Virus record (IMG/VR): IMGVR_UViG_3300044699_000123
Coordinates: 1 to 37,365 of that record
DNA length: 37,365 bases
Strand: one strand, 5' to 3'
Origin: a virus
Numbering within the stretch: position 1 is the first letter of the stretch; the number at the start of each line of letters is the position of its first letter. The notes beneath the pieces were generated by a model. The model searched no databases. It had not been told where the DNA came from and saw only the letters and a list, made by a program, of their open reading frames with translations. Of this stretch, positions 2,842-31,345 are shown piece after piece. A program made the translations under genes and the position numbers.

Positions 2842-4593
2842 TCGATCTGCGCGCAGGTGACGTCCTGGACCGACTGCGCGAGCTGCCCGACGCCAGCGTG
2901 GATGCGGTGATCACCGACCCGCCCTACGGGCTGAGCGAGCACCCGGCCGCCGAGCTGGTGACCGCGCTGACCGCGTGGTGCAACGGCGACCGCGAGCGGG
3001 TGCCCGACGGCAAGGGGTTCATGGGCAGAGCGTGGGACGCGTTCGTGCCGCCCCCGGCCGTCTGGGACGAGTGCTACCGGGTGCTCAAGCCCGGCGGACA
3101 CCTGCTCGCGTTCGCCGGGTCGCGCACCTACGACCTGATGGGGTTGAGCGTCCGGCTGGCCGGGTTCGAGGTGCGCGACGGGCTGCAGTGGTTGTACGGC
3201 AGCGGGTTCCCGAAGGGGATCGACGTCGGGAAGGCGATCGACAAGGCGCGCGATGGGCCGCCACCTGGAGGCGCTCTCGGTCACCGTGCCTATAGCGGCC
3301 GCCATGCGAGAACGGGGCATCTCCCGATCAGACCTGAATCGGGCGTGCGGGCTGGGTGACAGCGGCGCGGGTAGCGCTCAATCCTGGTCGACAGTCGTCG
3401 CGGACGGCGCACACAAGCCGCGAGTGCCAACGGTCGAACAGTGGGCGCTCCTGCGGGGCGTTCTAGGACTGGAGCGGCTGGACGCCGAGGTGTGGCGACT
3501 CAACGGCCGCAAGGGCACCCCGGGCGAAGCATGGGAGCAGCGCGCGGTGCTCGACGTCATCCCGGACCGATGGGCAGGCAAGGGCGAGGTGCTGGAACGC
3601 GCGAACCAGGCGCCCGGCACCGACGTCAAGATCACTGCTCCCGCCACCCTCGACGCCGCCCGCTGGGACGGCTGGAACACGTCCCTGAAGCCAGCTCATG
3701 AGCCGATCGTCCTCGCGCGCAAGCCGCTGTCCGGCACGGTGGCGACGACCGTCCTGGAGCACGGAACGGGCGCGCTGAACATCGGCGCGTGCAGGGTGGC
3801 GGGCCAGGTGCCCCGCACGACGCAGGGGCAGTCACAGAACGCGGGCCAGCTCTACGGGGCCGATCAGCGCGACCAGCGAGCGTTCGAGCCGCACGCCGCC
3901 GGCCGCTGGCCCGCGAACGTCCTGCTCTCGCACCTGCCCGAGTGCGGCCCGGAAGAGGATCCGCAGCCGTGCGCGCCCGGGTGCGTGGTCACCGAGCTGG
4001 ACGCGCAGAGCGGGACGCTGCGGGCGGGCGAACGTCCCGCGCAGCGTGACGGCATGGGCTATCACGACAACGACCGCAAACGGTCCGGGGCGCAGGGCGT
4101 GCGCGACGTGCTCGACTCCGGTGGCGCCTCCCGGTTCTACCCGACGTTCCGCTACCAGGCCAAAGCCCCGACCAGCGAGCGGCCGAAGATCGACGGCAAG
4201 GGCTGGCCGACGGTCAAGCCGCTGGCGCTGATGCAGTGGCTGGTCCGCCTGGCCACCCCGCTCGACGGCACCGTGCTGGATCCATTCGCCGGGACGGCCA
4301 CCACCCTGCAGGCGGCGCAGCGTGAGGGGTTCTCGGCCATCGGCATCGAGCGTGACCCGCTCGCGCTCGCGCTGGGCGCCCAGCGCCTGGGCATCCCCGT
4401 GCCTGCGCCGGTACTGCGCGCCCAGCTGCCCAGCCTGCAGTCCCCGACCCTGCTCGACCTGGTCCGCCAGGCGCGCGACATGTCGACGCTGGTGCTGCTC
4501 TACCGGGCGCACTGCGGCACCTGGTCGGACGAGGTGAACGACGCGGCCCGCGAGCGCCGGCGTCAGCTGGAGTCGGCCGCCGTCTCCGCCTAA
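2838..4593 (+). CDS. DNA methyltransferase, beta-class order, with inserted HTH-like domain; frame change near 3250
   Basis: Catalytic motif IV, TDPPYG, lies at about residues 26-31 and the AdoMet-binding motif DPFAGTATT lies near the C-terminus. Order IV, target-recognition region, I is that of beta-class amino-methyltransferases, which make N6-methyladenine or N4-methylcytosine. At about 3250 the frame changes within a GCGCGC run. Downstream lies an inserted region of about 80 residues with an HTH look (GISRSDLNRACG) and then VWRLNGRKG, as in other actinophage methylases. Methylation probably protects phage DNA from host restriction. No cognate restriction gene is seen nearby. Confidence 0.75.
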
Positions 4594-5102: not shown

Positions 5103-5377
5103 TGACCGGCGAGCCGTACGCGGGCGCGGACCCGCAGACCGACATCGTCTACGTGATGTGGGGCGATCGGGGTCTCGGCGTGCGGATCACCCCGGACCTG
5201 CAGGTCTACGAGTGGTTCGTGGCGCCGACCATCGACATGATCCCCTTGCTGGACGAGGTCATCGACCGCGATGCCGTGCTGTCCGCGCTCTCGGACGTGC
5301 GGCTGCCCAAGCGGGTCCGAGACGAGCTGGCCGAGGTGCTGCGCGCCGACGCCGACGACATTGGGAAGCGATCATGA
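5102..5377 (+). CDS. Hypothetical acidic protein (91 aa)
   Basis: ATG 5102 overlaps the upstream stop (TGATG); a GTG three bases earlier is an alternative. The sequence starts with a beta-rich half (DIVYVMWGDRGLGV) and continues as an acidic helical half (LLDEVIDRD, ELAEVLRADADD). It overlaps the following HTH gene by four bases (ATGA), so the two are likely made together. I do not recognise the family. Confidence 0.6.
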   Translation: MTGEPYAGADPQTDIVYVMWGDRGLGVRITPDLQVYEWFVAPTIDMIPLLDEVIDRDAVLSALSDVRLPKRVRDELAEVLRADADDIGKRS

Positions 5378-5580
5378 GCCGCCCCGTGCTGCTCACCGAG
5401 GCGCAGGCCGACGTGCTGGGCGCGCTGGCACTGTGTCGGACCCCGCAGCGCATCGCGCGTCGGCTCGGCATGTCCCACGGCGCGGTCAGCAGTCAGATCA
5501 CGAACCTGCGCTATCGGCTCGGCGTCGAGAGGACCGACCAGATCGTGCCGCGCGCCCGCGAGCTGGGACTGATCCGATGA
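5374..5580 (+). CDS. Stand-alone LuxR/GerE-type helix-turn-helix protein (68 aa)
   Basis: Nearly the whole protein is one LuxR-type DNA-binding domain: LTEAQADVLGALAL, then RIARRLGMSHGAVSSQITNL (recognition helix) and RYRLGVERTDQIV. There is no receiver or ligand domain, so it would be a constitutive regulator or depend on partners. It could control the early promoters of this phage or host genes. The ATGA overlaps on both sides place it in an operon. Confidence 0.75.
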   Translation: MSRPVLLTEAQADVLGALALCRTPQRIARRLGMSHGAVSSQITNLRYRLGVERTDQIVPRARELGLIR

Positions 5581-5759: not shown

Positions 5760-7445
5760 CCGCCACCCTGACCCCCGGGATCGACCTGCGGGACTACCAG
5801 CTCCAGGACGTGGACGCGACCTGCGCGCGCTGGGACGCCGGGGACGAGCTGGTCGCCGGGCAGGCGGCCACCGGCCTGGGCAAGACCACCTACCTGGCCG
5901 AGCTGGCGCGCCGGTCGCTGGAGGCCGGGCGCCGCCCGATCCTGCTCGCGCACCGCGACGAGATCACCGGCCAGATCGTCGAGCGCATCCGCGCCCACAT
6001 CCCGGCGGCCAGCGTCGGGGTCGTCGCCGCCGGCACCTACCAGGCGCAGCGCGACGTCACCGTGGCCATGACCCCCACGCTGCGCGGCAAGCGCGCCCAG
6101 CACGCCCTGGAGCGGCGCAGGGTGGCTTGGGACGACGTCCTGTACGACGAGGCCCACCACGCGGCCAGCCCGGCGCACGTGAGCATGCTGGACTGGCTCG
6201 GCGTCGGGCCCGAGCACCGCGAGCCGGGTCGGCGCATGCTCGGGCTGTCGGCCACCCTGACCCGCGCCGACCGCCACCACCTCGGGCGGATCTTCCACCG
6301 GGATGCCGCGTTCGAGCGCGGCATCCCGTGGGCCGTCGAGCACGGCTGGCTGGTGCGCCCGTTCGGCCGGGTCGTGGTGGCCGACCACGTCGAGCTGGGC
6401 ACCGCGAAGGTCCGCGGCGGCGACTACGTGGACGCCGAGCTGGGCGAGATGGTCACCCAGGACGTCGACCAGATCGTGGCCGCCTGGCGCGAGCACGCAT
6501 CGGATCGGATCACGATCGCGTTCACGCCGACCGTGGGCAGCGCCCAGGCGCTGACCGACGCGTTCGTGGCCGCCGGCGTGGCCGCCGAGTGCGTGATCGG
6601 CTCGACCAGCACGTCGGCAAGGCGGGGCATGTATGCCCGCCTGGCGGCCGGCACGACGCGGGTCCTCGTCTCGGTCATGGTGCTCACCGAGGGCTGGGAC
6701 TGCCCGGCGGTGAGCTGCGTGCTGATGGCGCGACCCACCCGGCTGGCCGGGCTGTACCAGCAGATCGTCGGGCGCGGTCTGCGCTTGTCGCCGGAGACTG
6801 GCAAGACCGACTGCATGGTCCTCGACGTCGTGGGCGCCTCGCGCGGGCAGAGGCTGGCCAGCTGGTCGAGCTGTACCCGGGCGCCGAGCAGGACACGTCC
6901 GAGCTGGACGCGCTGCCCTGCCAGGACTGCGGCGACGCGCCGTGCACCTGCGCGCCCGAGGTGGGCGCGCGCGACCCGGACGGCGGGCGGCGCAAGCTGG
7001 ACGGCCCGGCGGTCTACGAGACCGTCGACCTGCTGGTGGCCGACTCGGACGGAGCCTGGCTGGCCACCGAGGCCGGGATCCCCTTCCTGGTGAGCCGGGC
7101 GAACGACGGCCGGCGTGCGGCGGCGATCATGCAGGAGCGCGCCGGCACCTACCGGGTCGGGCACATGGCGATGCGCGGGCGGATGGATACCGTGCGCCTG
7201 GGCGAAGGGTGCACGCTGGACCAGGCGCGCCGGCTGGCCGAGGACTGGGCGATCGGGCGCAATCAGTACCTCAAGCACCCGAACAGCGTCTGGCGCACCA
7301 ACGCGCAGACCCCCTCGCTGCGCGAGCTGCGCGAGGCCAGCCGCCTGCAGATCCCGCACCGGCCCGCTACGGCGCCCGCGAGCTGTCCGAGCTGATCGAC
7401 CGGCGGATCATGAGCCAGCGCCTGGACATCTGGGTGACCCGGTGA
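5756..7445 (+). CDS. DEAH-box superfamily 2 DNA helicase; frame changes near 6860 and 7370
   Basis: This is a replication or recombination helicase. The motifs in order are the Q-like region LRDYQLQD, Walker A TGLGKT (about 39-44), DEAH (131-134), SAT (165-167), TEGWD (311-315) and QIVGRGLR (336-343), the complete SF2 set. After about 6860 the sequence continues one frame over with LVELYPGAEQDTSELD, a CxxC...C-x-C patch (CQDCGDAPCTC) and a domain ending RIMSQRLDIWVTR, with a second frame change near 7370. Each break fits loss of one base, so the intact protein would be about 560 residues. It follows the small membrane gene with an ATGA overlap. Confidence 0.85.
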
Positions 7446-14717: not shown

Positions 14718-15779
14718 TCAGCTCACCGCACCGGCGCGGCGGCCGGCGGTCTTCGTGGCGGCACCGGCCCGGCGGCCGGCGGTCTTCGTGGCCGTCCCCG
14801 CGCGCAACGGGCGCACCAGCGCCACGGTCTCGGCGCCGAAGAGGTGGACGGCCTGCAGCGGGATCGACGCGGCCAGTGCACCGCCGGTGACCACCTCGCC
14901 AGCCAGGGCGAGCTGCTGCAGCGGGATCGACGCGGCCAGAGCCCCGCCGGTGACGACGTCGCCCGGCAGCGCGAGGGTCTGCAGCGGAATGGACACGGCG
15001 ACCTGACCGCCCACCACCACGTCACCCGGCAGCGCGAGGGTCTGCAGCGGGATCGAGACCGCGACAGCGCCGCCCACGATCACCTCGCCGGGCAGCGAGA
15101 CCGTCTGTAGCGGGATGGACGCGGCCAGCTCGCCGGTCGTCCCGGCGTCCGGCAGCGTCGGGTCGGCCTCGGTGGTGACGGCCGTCGAGCCGGCGGTCAG
15201 GTCCCGGCCGTTGCCGGAGTGGTCGGTGAGATCCGTGTGCACGGTGAGCGGCCAGTCCGCCCACAGGCCCGACGTGCGCACCGGGGTCGCCGAGTCCCAT
15301 TCGGCCTCGATCTCGGACTGGCTGAGCACGGCCGTCCACACCCGGAAGTAGACGATTCGGCCGTTCCACCACTCGCTGGTGTCGCCACCGCCGCGCCCGC
15401 CGATGGCCAGCTGCGTCGGCGTCCCCGAGGACGACACCGTGCCCGAGTCCACCTCGGTGGAAAACCCGGGGTTGCGCACGAGCGACTGCGCCGACGTGCC
15501 CGTGCAGGTCACCGCGACGTTGCGCCACTCGCCGACCGGCAGGCCCTCGCTGTTGGTGACGGTCCCGCCGCCGGTGAAGTAGTTCGGTCCGCCGGTGCCG
15601 TCTCCCGAGCTAGCCCAGGTCAGGATGGTAGAGCCGGACGCGTGGATGCGCCCGATCGTGGCGAACTCGTCCTGATCGACGCTGTTGTAGACCGTCGCAA
15701 CCATCGTGATGCCCGACGCCGGGCTCGGCGGGCTCGCCCGGGTCAGCTGATCGGTCGACGCGTCCAGGCGAACCGACAT
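14718..15779 (-). CDS. Tail fibre-like protein with LamG-type domain and five 21-residue repeats (353 aa)
   Basis: The first 210 residues resemble a concanavalin A/LamG-type lectin fold (GEWRNVAVTCTG, WWNGRIVYFRVWTAVLSQSE, LTDHSGNGRDL), which binds cell-wall sugars in phage tail proteins. The C-terminal part consists of five 21-residue repeats of A-x-SIPLQTLALPGDVVVGG type, likely a beta-stranded stalk, and ends with a doubled basic motif, ATKTAGRRAG. It lies at the end of the tail-tip genes and probably contacts the host. The basic Lys/Arg/Ala end could bind nucleic acid or acidic wall polymers. Confidence 0.7.
   Translation of the reverse strand: MSVRLDASTDQLTRASPPSPASGITMVATVYNSVDQDEFATIGRIHASGSTILTWASSGDGTGGPNYFTGGGTVTNSEGLPVGEWRNVAVTCTGTSAQSLVRNPGFSTEVDSGTVSSSGTPTQLAIGGRGGGDTSEWWNGRIVYFRVWTAVLSQSEIEAEWDSATPVRTSGLWADWPLTVHTDLTDHSGNGRDLTAGSTAVTTEADPTLPDAGTTGELAASIPLQTVSLPGEVIVGGAVAVSIPLQTLALPGDVVVGGQVAVSIPLQTLALPGDVVTGGALAASIPLQQLALAGEVVTGGALAASIPLQAVHLFGAETVALVRPLRAGTATKTAGRRAGAATKTAGRRAGAVS
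14853..15126 (-). repeat. Five tandem 63-bp coding repeats
   Basis: CTGCAGCGGGAT-like units begin at 14853, 14916, 14979, 15042 and 15105, exactly 63 bp apart, each encoding 21 residues with the core SIPLQ. The copies differ at scattered bases, so the array is not recent, yet the spacing is perfect. Confidence 0.85.
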
Positions 15780-29090: not shown

Positions 29091-29124
29091 GAACGGCCCC
29101 CGGACCGAAGCCCGGGGGCCGTTC
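29091..29124 (-). terminator. Perfect 13-bp hairpin ending the repeat-array transcript
   Basis: GAACGGCCCCCGG and its exact complement flank an 8-base loop. It is placed just after the repeat array in the leftward direction and before the capsid leader, so it should isolate the cassette from the capsid operon. Confidence 0.75.
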
Positions 29125-29263
29125 CCACGCCATGGCCCTGCCCTTGCCTACCCAGCCGCGCCCACGCCACGCCGGCCCTGCCTTGCCTGGCCCGGCCTTG
29201 CCTCGTCCAGGCTGGCCATGCCCTGCCCAGCGGTGCCCTGACACGCTAGCCCAGCCGCGCCCA

Positions 29264-29315
29264 GCGCGGGCGTCCGGGACTCGAACCCGGATGTGTGCCG
29301 CTCGCCCAACCGTCC
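29264..29315 (-). repeat. T-arm-like unit 1 of 5
   Basis: Full-length unit, identical over its length to unit 4. The T-stem pairs fully. Confidence 0.8.
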
Positions 29316-29404
29316 ATGCCCTGCCTTGCCTGGCCACGCCCTGCAAGCCGTGCCACACCGAGCTCTGACCTGCCTGCCTCGCCGTGCCATGCCGGGCGCG
29401 CCTT

Positions 29405-29447
29405 GCGCGGGCGCCCGGACTCGCCCGATGTGTGCCGCTCGCCCACC
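29405..29447 (-). repeat. T-arm-like unit 2 of 5, degenerate
   Basis: It keeps the 5' and 3' ends (GCGCGGGCG and TGTGTGCCGCTCGCCC on the plus strand) but has lost part of the T-loop and stem. Confidence 0.75.
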
Positions 29448-29547
29448 TCCTGGCCTGGCCCAGCGTGCCTCGCCGTGCCACGCCTCGCCTTGACTTGCCC
29501 GCCTTGCTGGCCCGACCGAGCCACGCCATGCCAGCCGACCACGCCCT

Positions 29548-29597
29548 GCGCGGGCGTCCGGACTCGAACCCGATGTGTGCCGCTCGCCCAACCGTCC
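29548..29597 (-). repeat. T-arm-like unit 3 of 5
   Basis: It is as unit 1 but lacks one base from each side of the T-stem (GGG to GG and CCCGG to CCCG on the plus strand), which weakens the stem. These could be read errors. Confidence 0.8.
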
Positions 29598-29683
29598 CTG
29601 CCGCGCACGTCGAGCCACGCCGTGCCCTGCCTGACCTAGCCTGACTGCCTTGCCCAGCCGCGCATGCCATGCCGCCCTGCCTC

Positions 29684-29735
29684 GCGCGGGCGTCCGGGAC
29701 TCGAACCCGGATGTGTGCCGCTCGCCCAACCGTCC
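29684..29735 (-). repeat. T-arm-like unit 4 of 5
   Basis: It is identical to unit 1, including the flanking CATGCC at its right end. Confidence 0.8.
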
Positions 29736-29858
29736 ATGCCGCGCCTTGCCTAGCCTGGCCATACCTGGCCATGACTCGCCCAGTCCATGCCACGTCTCGC
29801 CGCGTCGTGCCTGGCCTCGCCCTGCCTTGCCATGCTGTGCCTAGTCCCGCCCGGCCTC

Positions 29859-29910
29859 GCGCGGGCGTCCGGGACTCGAACCCGGGTGTGTGCCGCTCGC
29901 CCAACCGTCC
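29859..29910 (-). repeat. T-arm-like unit 5 of 5
   Basis: It is full length, with one base change beside the T-stem (ATGTGTG to GTGTGTG on the plus strand). Confidence 0.8.
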
Positions 29911-29985
29911 CTGCCTCGCCTTGCCGCGCCCGGCCTCGCCCTGCCCAGCACTGCCATGCCCCGCCGTGCCATGCCGAGCCGGGTC

Positions 29986-30527
29986 CTACTCGCTGACGAG
30001 CTTCTCCAGCTTCGCCAGCCGCTCGTGCAGCGCGGCCACCTCGGCCTCGGTCCGCTCGCCGCGCTGGGTCGTGCTGGACAGGGCTTTCTCCAGCCGCTCG
30101 GTACGCACCGAGAGCCGGCGCGACAAGTCGATCTGCGCGGCCAGCGCCTGGCCGACCAGCTCGAACGCCTGGCGGACGCTGGCGTCCATGCCGTTGAAAT
30201 CGACGTTGACCGCCTTGCTCTGCGCACGCACCAGCGCCCGTCCGGCCTTGCTCTGGTGGTGGCGCGCCAGGTCGAGCTGCACGCCCGGCTCGACGATCTC
30301 GTAGCCCTTGTTCGGCACCGCGCGCGCGGTGCGCCGATCCTCGGTCTCCAGCTCCTTGACGGCACGTCGCACCGCCAGCTGGATGGTCGTGCGGTCGTGG
30401 TCGGGGTGCAGCTCCAGCGCGGTCGCCATGGCCACGTAGGTGACCACCTCGCCGACCTTCGCCACCCGCAGCAGGTCGTAGAGCGTGCGCCAGCGCGCGA
30501 CGGCGCCGACCGGGTGAACGGCGACAT
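29986..30527 (-). CDS. Winged-helix DNA-binding protein with coiled-coil tail (about 180 aa), frame change near 30510
   Basis: ATG 30527 (MSPFTR) overlaps the upstream TGA. One lost base near 30510 joins it to ARWRTLYDLLRVAKVG. A winged helix follows: GEVVTYVAMATALELHPDHD, IQLAVRRAVKELETEDRR and NKGYEIVEPG as the wing. Then ARHHQSKAGRALVRAQSKAV, and about 60 residues of coiled coil ending LHERLAKLEKLVSE. Similar wHTH plus coiled-coil proteins occur in other actinophages without known function. It shares a transcript with the RAMP-like gene and may bind DNA or the array RNA. Confidence 0.65.
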
Positions 30528-31100
30528 CACGTCGATCTCCACCGTGAACCGGCCGTACACCGGGCGCCAGTCCCCGATGCCGACGATCGACCCGGCGAGT
30601 CGGGCGAACTCCTCCAGCTCGGTGCGGTCGATGATCTCCGGGTCGAACTCGATCTCCACGGAGAGCACCCAGTCCCGGAACATGGGGCGGGTGCGCATGA
30701 TCCGCTTGCGCTCGACCACCACCGAGTCCACGGTGCGGAAGTTCGCGTCCTTCCACAGCTCGTCCAGGTCACGCGGGCCCGTGTAGCCCAGCGGATTGAT
30801 CCGCTCCGGGATGAGCACGCCCGCCTGCACCTTGTCTCCGCGCCGGCTGCGCTTAGCCGCTCCACGCAGGCACTGGCGCACGTTCTCGCCGGGCACGAAC
30901 GGGCCGACGTCCGGGTCGAAGTACAGGCCGCCGACGTATTCCAGGCGCGCCAGCGCCTCGCGATCCTCGTCGGTCTTGCGCGACCGCTTGGCCATGATCG
31001 GTTTCATCTCCCGCACGATCGGGTCGAGCGGGTCGGCCAGGCGGGTGTTGTGCATGAGCAGCGGCGCCGTGCCGCGCATCGTGAGCGTTGCGTGAGCCAT
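30527..31100 (-). CDS. RAMP/Cas7-like protein (about 190 aa) from a leaderless promoter
   Basis: ATG 31100 (MAHATLTMRGTAPLLMHNTR) stands seven bases after a -10. Two segments resemble RAMP-fold (Cas7-type) RNA-binding proteins: GPFVPGENVRQCLRGAAK at about 66-83, like the xIPGSSLKGxxR element, and GIGDWRPVYGRFTVE at about 174-188, like the Gly-rich loop near the RAMP C-terminus. Homologues with PLLMHN and GDWRP motifs exist in other phages as hypotheticals, to my memory. Near the 3' end one frame change is needed to reach the TGA at 30527-30529. No CRISPR nuclease is nearby. The RAMP assignment is an inference from motifs. Confidence 0.5.
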
Positions 31101-31136
31101 AGCCCACAAGCTAGCGCATGTTCATGCGCAAGTCAC
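31101..31136 (-). promoter_or_regulatory. Leaderless promoter of the cassette with a 16-bp palindromic operator
   Basis: Read leftward: GTGACT (31136-31131), a 17-base spacer, TAGCTT (31113-31108) and seven bases to ATG 31100. The geometry equals that of the rightward promoters. The spacer is filled by GCGCATG-AA-CATGCGC (31114-31129), an ideal repressor site. A wider inverted repeat (CCCAC...CTAGCGC with GCGCTAG...GTGGG) surrounds it. Confidence 0.7.
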
Positions 31137-31221
31137 GCGCTAGTCGTGGGCCAATGCGGTGCGCTACCCTGATCGACGAGCCAGCGGCGGGCTTCCAAAT
31201 GCGCCGTACCGGGACGCCGGG

Positions 31222-31248
31222 GCGGGACCGTCACAGCGACGGCCCCGC
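31222..31248 (-). terminator. Hairpin after the prohead protease gene
   Basis: GCGGGACCGTC and GACGGCCCCGC pair over 10 of 11 positions around the loop ACAGC. It lies about 100 bases after the protease stop, and would separate head genes from the cassette. A smaller hairpin, TACCCG/CGGGTA, lies at 31269-31287. The rest of 31137-31345 shows no gene. Confidence 0.6.
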
Positions 31249-31345
31249 TGTCCTACCGCTACCTGAGCTACCCGCGCCCGCCGGGTACGCCACCGCCCGA
31301 GGATGGTCCGGGAAGGGAAGCGCCCCGACCAGGCGCTGCGGGCAT

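Follow-up and report, generated by a model that had tools for sequence, protein, structure and literature searches.

Introduction

VIPR (Viral Interference Programmable Repeat) was described in a 2026 preprint (PMC13142463), where it is proposed as a RAMP system that predates CRISPR. In SUSP1, the RAMP protein Vipr binds a vrRNA built of alternating GGY/NN pentamers and reads double-stranded DNA through base pairing of the NN dinucleotides, between which one DNA base, mostly at a codon wobble position, is left unread. Transcription of rival mobile elements is thereby repressed, an effect enhanced by the DNA-binding protein Vap (PMC13142463). In the clades studied there, each vrRNA holds 9–16 repeats and ends in an invariable 3′ tail, which is pseudoknotted in the SUSP1 clade, and arrays interspersed with hammerhead ribozymes are also named (PMC13142463). 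The words 'tRNA' and 'RNase' do not occur in the preprint's main text. Two other kinds of system invite comparison. Class 1 CRISPR-Cas complexes (Csm/Cas7) have RAMP-fold subunits that take part in RNA-guided recognition, and in engineered tRNA-flanked guide arrays (drive-and-process arrays, PMC9120480) guides joined to tRNAs are released by tRNA-processing enzymes.

Here we describe a 2-kb phage cassette that is very probably a VIPR system of an actinobacterial phage, with guides that are separated by tRNA-like minihelices, which host enzymes would process. With the preprint's systems (PMC13142463, PDB 36pp), as far as its main text describes them, the cassette shares a phage-borne Vipr RAMP protein, an adjacent DNA-binding Vap, and tandem GGY/NN repeat RNAs encoded on the vipr strand with hypervariable NN positions, and its relatives share the 1-nt skip. 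It differs in the tRNA-like minihelices placed between the vrRNAs and in its occurrence in actinobacterial phages; a pseudoknotted tail of the SUSP1 type was not noticed in its array.

A two-gene cassette between the protease and capsid genes

The DNA analyzed (the window) is a 37.4-kb IMG/VR virus record (IMGVR_UViG_3300044699_000123; 37,365 nt), and the cassette lies on its minus strand between the prohead protease and capsid genes. A sequence-only reading of this interval had described a self-contained accessory unit with its own promoter and operator, two coupled genes for RAMP-like and winged-helix (wHTH) proteins, a tRNA-like repeat array and a terminator, all on one strand. These elements are real, and all were recovered on the minus strand at about the positions given in that reading. 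The window capsid shares ~30% identity with Mycobacterium phage capsids, e.g. those of Courthouse and Bipper, which makes an actinobacterial host likely. Courthouse has the protease gene next to the capsid gene, and by this comparison we regard the cassette, as had been proposed, as an accessory unit inserted in the head operon. A sister phage, L006 (IMGVR_UViG_3300032017_000002), carries the cassette at the same site in the protease/capsid interval; its first protein is 97% identical to that of the window, it has three repeat units as compared with five, and the stretches resembling spacers differ. Only two genes, vipr and vap, are contained in the 2-kb cassette, where no further cas-like gene was seen, and Pfam and PADLOC searches yielded nothing usable for it. 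Two sequences outside the cassette are mentioned for completeness: a 63-bp tandem repeat of 4.4 copies at 14853–15128 and, on the minus strand at 31222–31300, a hairpin with a degenerate tRNA-looking sequence that occupies the gap between the protease gene and the leader and is absent in L006.

The stretch directly upstream of vipr (31101–31150, minus strand) contains the palindrome GCGCATGaaCATGCGC and is nearly identical in L006, with divergence further upstream. It is a probable promoter/operator; the conservation and the palindrome agree with the regulatory region proposed previously, but a consensus scan revealed no sigma-70-like promoter, nor did it reveal a T-run terminator. Such absences are not unusual in phages of high-G+C actinobacteria. 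At the other end, a perfect terminator hairpin, GAACGGCCCCCGG..TTCG..CCGGGGGCCGTTC, is present at 29091–29124 (minus strand). The segment 29130–29085 folds at −39.9 kcal/mol (z=−6.4), and in L006 the stem is preserved by compensatory changes (GTACGG../..CCGTAC).

The two proteins match Vipr and Vap

The first gene, vipr (30534–31100, minus strand), begins with an ATG at 31100; an indel near 30530 hides its natural stop. Its product matches phrog_4652 (E=7.4e-57), a family present in 130 GenBank phage records that extend from Felixounavirus through Gordonia and Mycobacterium phages. A profile built from nine sequences, the window protein and eight homologues, matches PDB 36pp, 'SUSP1 Vipr protein', with E=2.6e-82. 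The AlphaFold model of the 97% identical L006 protein has a pLDDT of 94.5, and its top Foldseek matches are Csm3/Cas7 with a probability of 1.00, indicating a RAMP fold; the motif G-x-G-D-W-R-P...G-R-F, which provides the glycine-rich loop feature, is conserved among the homologues. Directly downstream, vap (29986–30527, minus strand) encodes a protein whose AlphaFold model shows a wHTH fold followed by a long helical C-terminus. The actinophage family of this second protein aligns with the Vipr neighbour of Felixounavirus and Pseudomonas phages (hhalign, 98.4%, E=1e-14), and by this homology the gene is assigned as a Vap partner of the SUSP1 kind (type II, vap1). Structure prediction of both proteins thus confirms the RAMP-like and wHTH assignments made before, and sequence alone could not place the cassette in VIPR more firmly.

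In the deposited window the vipr/vap junction is frameshifted: a CCCC run is short by one base, and a second indel is located at the overlap. L006 has one extra C near window position 30513 and an intact vap frame, and its overlap, GAGTGATG, is intact as well, so the window carries small frameshifts that reflect either assembly errors or decay. The gene pair described earlier is accordingly present, and coupled in L006, but its coupling is broken by indels in the window as deposited. Probable single-base indels are found at 30500–30535 (vipr/vap) and at about 31840–31750 (protease gene). A decayed, inactive VIPR copy would account for these indels, which also break the register of tracts 2–6 of the array described below, and for the degenerate state of two separators; yet the protein is 97% identical to, and the leader nearly identical with, those of the intact L006 copy, and a structural gene is seemingly also frameshifted, which points to errors of metagenome assembly. 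We consider decay unlikely; the two frameshifted regions, vipr/vap and the protease gene, suggest assembly errors in the window contig.

Tandem GGY/NN tracts form the body of the array

The sequence between vap and the terminator is occupied mainly by stretches with a 5-nt period. Tract 1 (29904–29980; this and all following tracts on the minus strand) consists of 14 GGYNN pentamers with the NN series TC AT AC GG AT AG TG AG GA CG GC AA GA AG. Tract 2 (29729–29858) has about 24–26 pentamers and one indel. Several indels break the register of tract 3 (29591–29683), and indels are also present in tracts 4 (29446–29547) and 5 (29309–29404). Tract 6 (29131–29263) retains an 11-pentamer core in which the NN are identical to those of L006 tract 4. 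The longest in-register GGYNN run of the window has 13 pentamers and that of L006 has 23; runs in 300 dinucleotide shuffles reached 6 at most, and those in the rest of the window 4 at most. Entropy in L006 is 0.37–0.45 bits at the GGY positions and 1.86–1.97 bits at the NN positions. On this evidence the low-complexity stretches between the repeat units are read as guides (vrRNA) with their information in the NN dinucleotides. The sequence-only reading had taken these stretches for filler and found no true spacers, which was wrong; it had also treated the tRNA-like repeats as the array itself, and these are real but only separate the guides, which make up its main body. A CRISPR-like reading with contiguous spacers was ruled out: the stretches between the units are 5-nt periodic and the repeat is a tRNA-like minihelix. 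The cassette differs from class 1 CRISPR-Cas in lacking palindromic repeats and contiguous spacers and in its noncontiguous code.

Tracts of this kind accompany the gene pair widely. Among 155 related IMG/VR Vipr loci, some of which are the same contig entered twice, 124 carry GGYNN tracts; vipr homologues that routinely lack an array, which the sequence-only reading had named as the finding that would speak against it, are the opposite of this outcome. The gene pair and the array thus belong together, and the pair recurs with its pentamer tracts in well above 100 phage contigs. In these 155 loci 246 tracts lie on the vipr strand and 1 on the opposite strand, with 0 in block shuffles, in agreement with the same-strand organisation noted previously. 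Direct repeats beside a gene for a DNA-binding protein are also the usual layout of iterons, and the pentamers might be bound as DNA by the wHTH protein at a replication origin, partition site or packaging signal. The strict strand bias (246 to 1), the near-maximal entropy of NN within a 5-nt period, the covarying RNA helices between tracts (see below) and the vrRNA function demonstrated for the homologous system (PMC13142463) all argue against iterons, which we regard as extremely improbable.

Returning to the tracts as guides, their length varies: 14 pentamers in window tract 1, 9–14 in most tracts of LittleE and L201, and 22–29 in L006. The tracts of up to about 22–29 pentamers in the window/L006 lineage contrast with the 9–16 repeats given in the preprint's main text (PMC13142463), and two or more vrRNAs may share one long tract. 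Comparison of the window and L006 arrays shows that they have been rebuilt: tract 1 of both begins with the same five pentamers, L006 tract 2 contains a nine-pentamer guide from window tract 1 that differs there in one NN base, and the 11-pentamer core of the last tract has been retained.

The related loci also include other layouts and some annotation conflicts. In L156 (5125–5900) every vrRNA tract comes with a terminator-like hairpin of its own and, after the hairpin, a repeated CCCTGATAGAGTCAGGG-like element; the opposite strand carries a genuine tRNA gene at 5419–5491, between vrRNA tracts. In L011 (Pseudomonas phage LESphi2, a prophage of P. aeruginosa LESB58), GGYNN tracts and hairpins are present upstream of vipr at 3540–3940, between vipr and a gene annotated as a sigma factor. 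The annotated gp35 of LittleE (L010, 3563–3952) overlaps the vrRNA array on the opposite strand, and the N-terminus of annotated gp40 of Trine (L007, 4579–4875) coincides with the array; both look like annotation errors.

Guides of related loci match DNA with a 1-nt skip

The targeting code was assessed with 134 guides from Vipr loci against 2.67 Mb of DNA, with strands counted separately. At three or fewer mismatches, 14 of the 134 guides matched with a 1-nt skip, as compared with 1, 0 and 2 for skips of 0, 2 and 3, respectively. The preprint's 1-nt skip rule is, by this measure, reproduced on independently gathered related loci, although its strongest examples are guides of Pseudomonas-type loci, probably close to the preprint's P. 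fulva clade. Furthermore, one guide from the array of the Mycobacterium phage LittleE, in which tRNA-like separators of the window's kind occur, matches at 22/22 NN bases the DNA encoding DVGLKRDTTAV of the large terminase, with the skipped bases at wobble positions. This match is present in the terminases (TerL, assigned by homology) of two other, different phage contigs and not in LittleE itself. The three last NN pairs of the guide mismatch these terminase sequences, so that what is matched is a relative of the target, not the target proper.

For the guides of the window and L006 the searches returned no target. Exact patterns searched in IMG/VR gave 0, 2 (chance-like) and 0 matches; 395 actinomycete-class genomes gave three matches at 3 mismatches, which we take as chance; and self-targeting was at chance level only. 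LittleE guide B, the one with the terminase match, had no match in 396 mycobacterial genomes. A tblastn search with decoded guide peptides returned nothing, even for the LittleE peptide, and hence this test was too insensitive. The window locus and its relatives provide sequence-level evidence for the GGY/NN code in actinobacterial phages, with the 1-nt skip reproduced independently, and LittleE is useful in having a guide that matches a terminase motif of other phages.

tRNA-like minihelices separate the guides

The separator is a 45-nt minihelix that consists of an acceptor stem of six pairs, a loop that includes a D-loop-like GG, and a T-stem of five pairs closed by the loop TTCGANT; an anticodon arm is absent. 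Five are found in the window, all on the minus strand. With covariance model R1, separators 1 (29859–29903), 2 (29684–29728) and 5 (29264–29308), which are copies in the training set, score 56.2, 55.8 and 55.8 bits, and separators 3 (29548–29590, slightly degenerate) and 4 (29405–29445, degenerate), both outside the training set, score 37.0 and 29.2 bits. In an alignment of ten separators of differing sequence, 98% of cells are paired and 10 of 11 pairs have changes on both sides. The covariation is 0.895, versus 0.215 in shuffled and at most 0.174 in slid alignments; the ten rows were partly picked by a pairing rule, so that this value is inflated and an upper estimate. This covariation in an acceptor-plus-T-arm minihelix bears out the tRNA-like character first noted for the repeats.

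Outside its training set, the covariance model detected units in the window, Trine, MakoManhole, L152, L155, L157, L288 and L289. On 569 kb of unrelated genome loci it gave only weak, chance-like matches (best, 22 bits); the weaker new matches of 19–28 bits in Trine, MakoManhole, L288 and L289 overlap this range, and their assignment also rests on position. The same model found no minihelices in a further 548 kb of VIPR loci, most of which belong to the Pseudomonas and Felixounavirus types. In all, 13 phage VIPR loci have minihelices. These are clustered on the Vipr tree, where well-supported branches force at least two gains or losses. True tRNA genes were ruled out for the separators: they have no cloverleaf with an anticodon, ARAGORN found no tRNA genes, and the Rfam tRNA model remained below threshold. 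No Rfam family matched them above threshold, and the closest sub-threshold match was to the mascRNA/MEN beta tRNA-like RNAs (RF01684, E about 2); these are eukaryotic and retain more of the tRNA fold, and the match indicates a resemblance only. A search of 13 Streptomyces genomes with the minihelix model, run without a positive control, found none.

The minimal acceptor/T-arm shape is accepted by RNase P, and mascRNA, itself tRNA-like, is a substrate of both RNase P and RNase Z. We propose that the window array is transcribed as one long RNA with six guides and five minihelices between them. Host RNase P would cut at the 5′ side of each minihelix and RNase Z, or another 3′ enzyme, at its 3′ side, so that single vrRNAs would be released. 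A released vrRNA together with Vipr would then recognize double-stranded DNA through the NN dinucleotides with a 1-nt skip and repress rival mobile elements, and Vap would enhance this repression. We read the function as VIPR RNA-guided DNA recognition, and not as the tRNA mimicry once suggested. The processing step is proposed from shape and position, by which the separators look like substrates of RNase P and RNase Z: each of the 31 units examined lies at the edge of a tract, with 25 flanked by tracts on both sides, 3 by a tract on the 3′ side only and 3 by one on the 5′ side only.

The minihelix could instead be the structural 3′ tail of each vrRNA, an uncut cap bound by Vipr, comparable to the pseudoknotted SUSP1 tail. 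The SUSP1 vrRNAs indeed have an invariable 3′ tail after the tract (PMC13142463), and most units lie directly 3′ of a tract. However, the first units of Trine, MakoManhole and L201 have no 5′ tract and would have nothing to cap, and a unit is missing after window tract 6, L006 tract 4 and the last tracts of LittleE and L201. In addition, many tracts end in a short tail-like sequence of their own (GGGATC/ATA.. or a GGACCCTTCGGGTC hairpin) ahead of the minihelix. A tail function is therefore possible but rather doubtful; units without a 5′ guide and last tracts without a unit fit better with a separator role. For the fuller proposal, a natural tRNA-punctuated guide array in which anticodon-less minihelices let host RNase P and RNase Z free VIPR guides, a further mode beside the tail and hammerhead types, we see an even chance.

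VIPR arrays punctuated by tRNA-like units appear to be a new variant. The hammerhead-interspersed arrays named in the preprint (PMC13142463) likewise have an RNA element that parts one vrRNA from the next and presumably serves processing, there by self-cleavage, whereas the minihelix would need host enzymes. Drive-and-process arrays (PMC9120480) are man-made and use full tRNAs; the cassette would be a natural counterpart built with minimal tRNA-like units, as the separators suggest. The separators also make the question of vrRNA release testable in a standard system, as LittleE grows on Mycobacterium smegmatis mc2 155.

Decoys that act independently of the guides, titrating a host tRNA-acting enzyme or a tRNA-targeting defence, would also explain why the T-loop and the D-loop-like GG are conserved, and minihelices are found in one record, L021 (IMGVR_UViG_2643221578_000001), with no VIPR nearby. 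Such a role is very unlikely, as the units of both sister genomes, the window and L006, are confined to the VIPR array and always placed at tract borders, neither of which a decoy needs. L021 was the one viral locus with real minihelices in a search of genome contigs for the pattern GGGCGAGCGGCACACA, which is so short that nearly all of its matches are chance. Its minihelices, on the minus strand at 5213–5258, 6122–6166, 1774–1819 and 6694–6740 (the last weak), sit between the protein genes of an unrelated operon, and by this placement the separators of the guide array may be one use of a general RNA-processing signal of actinophages.
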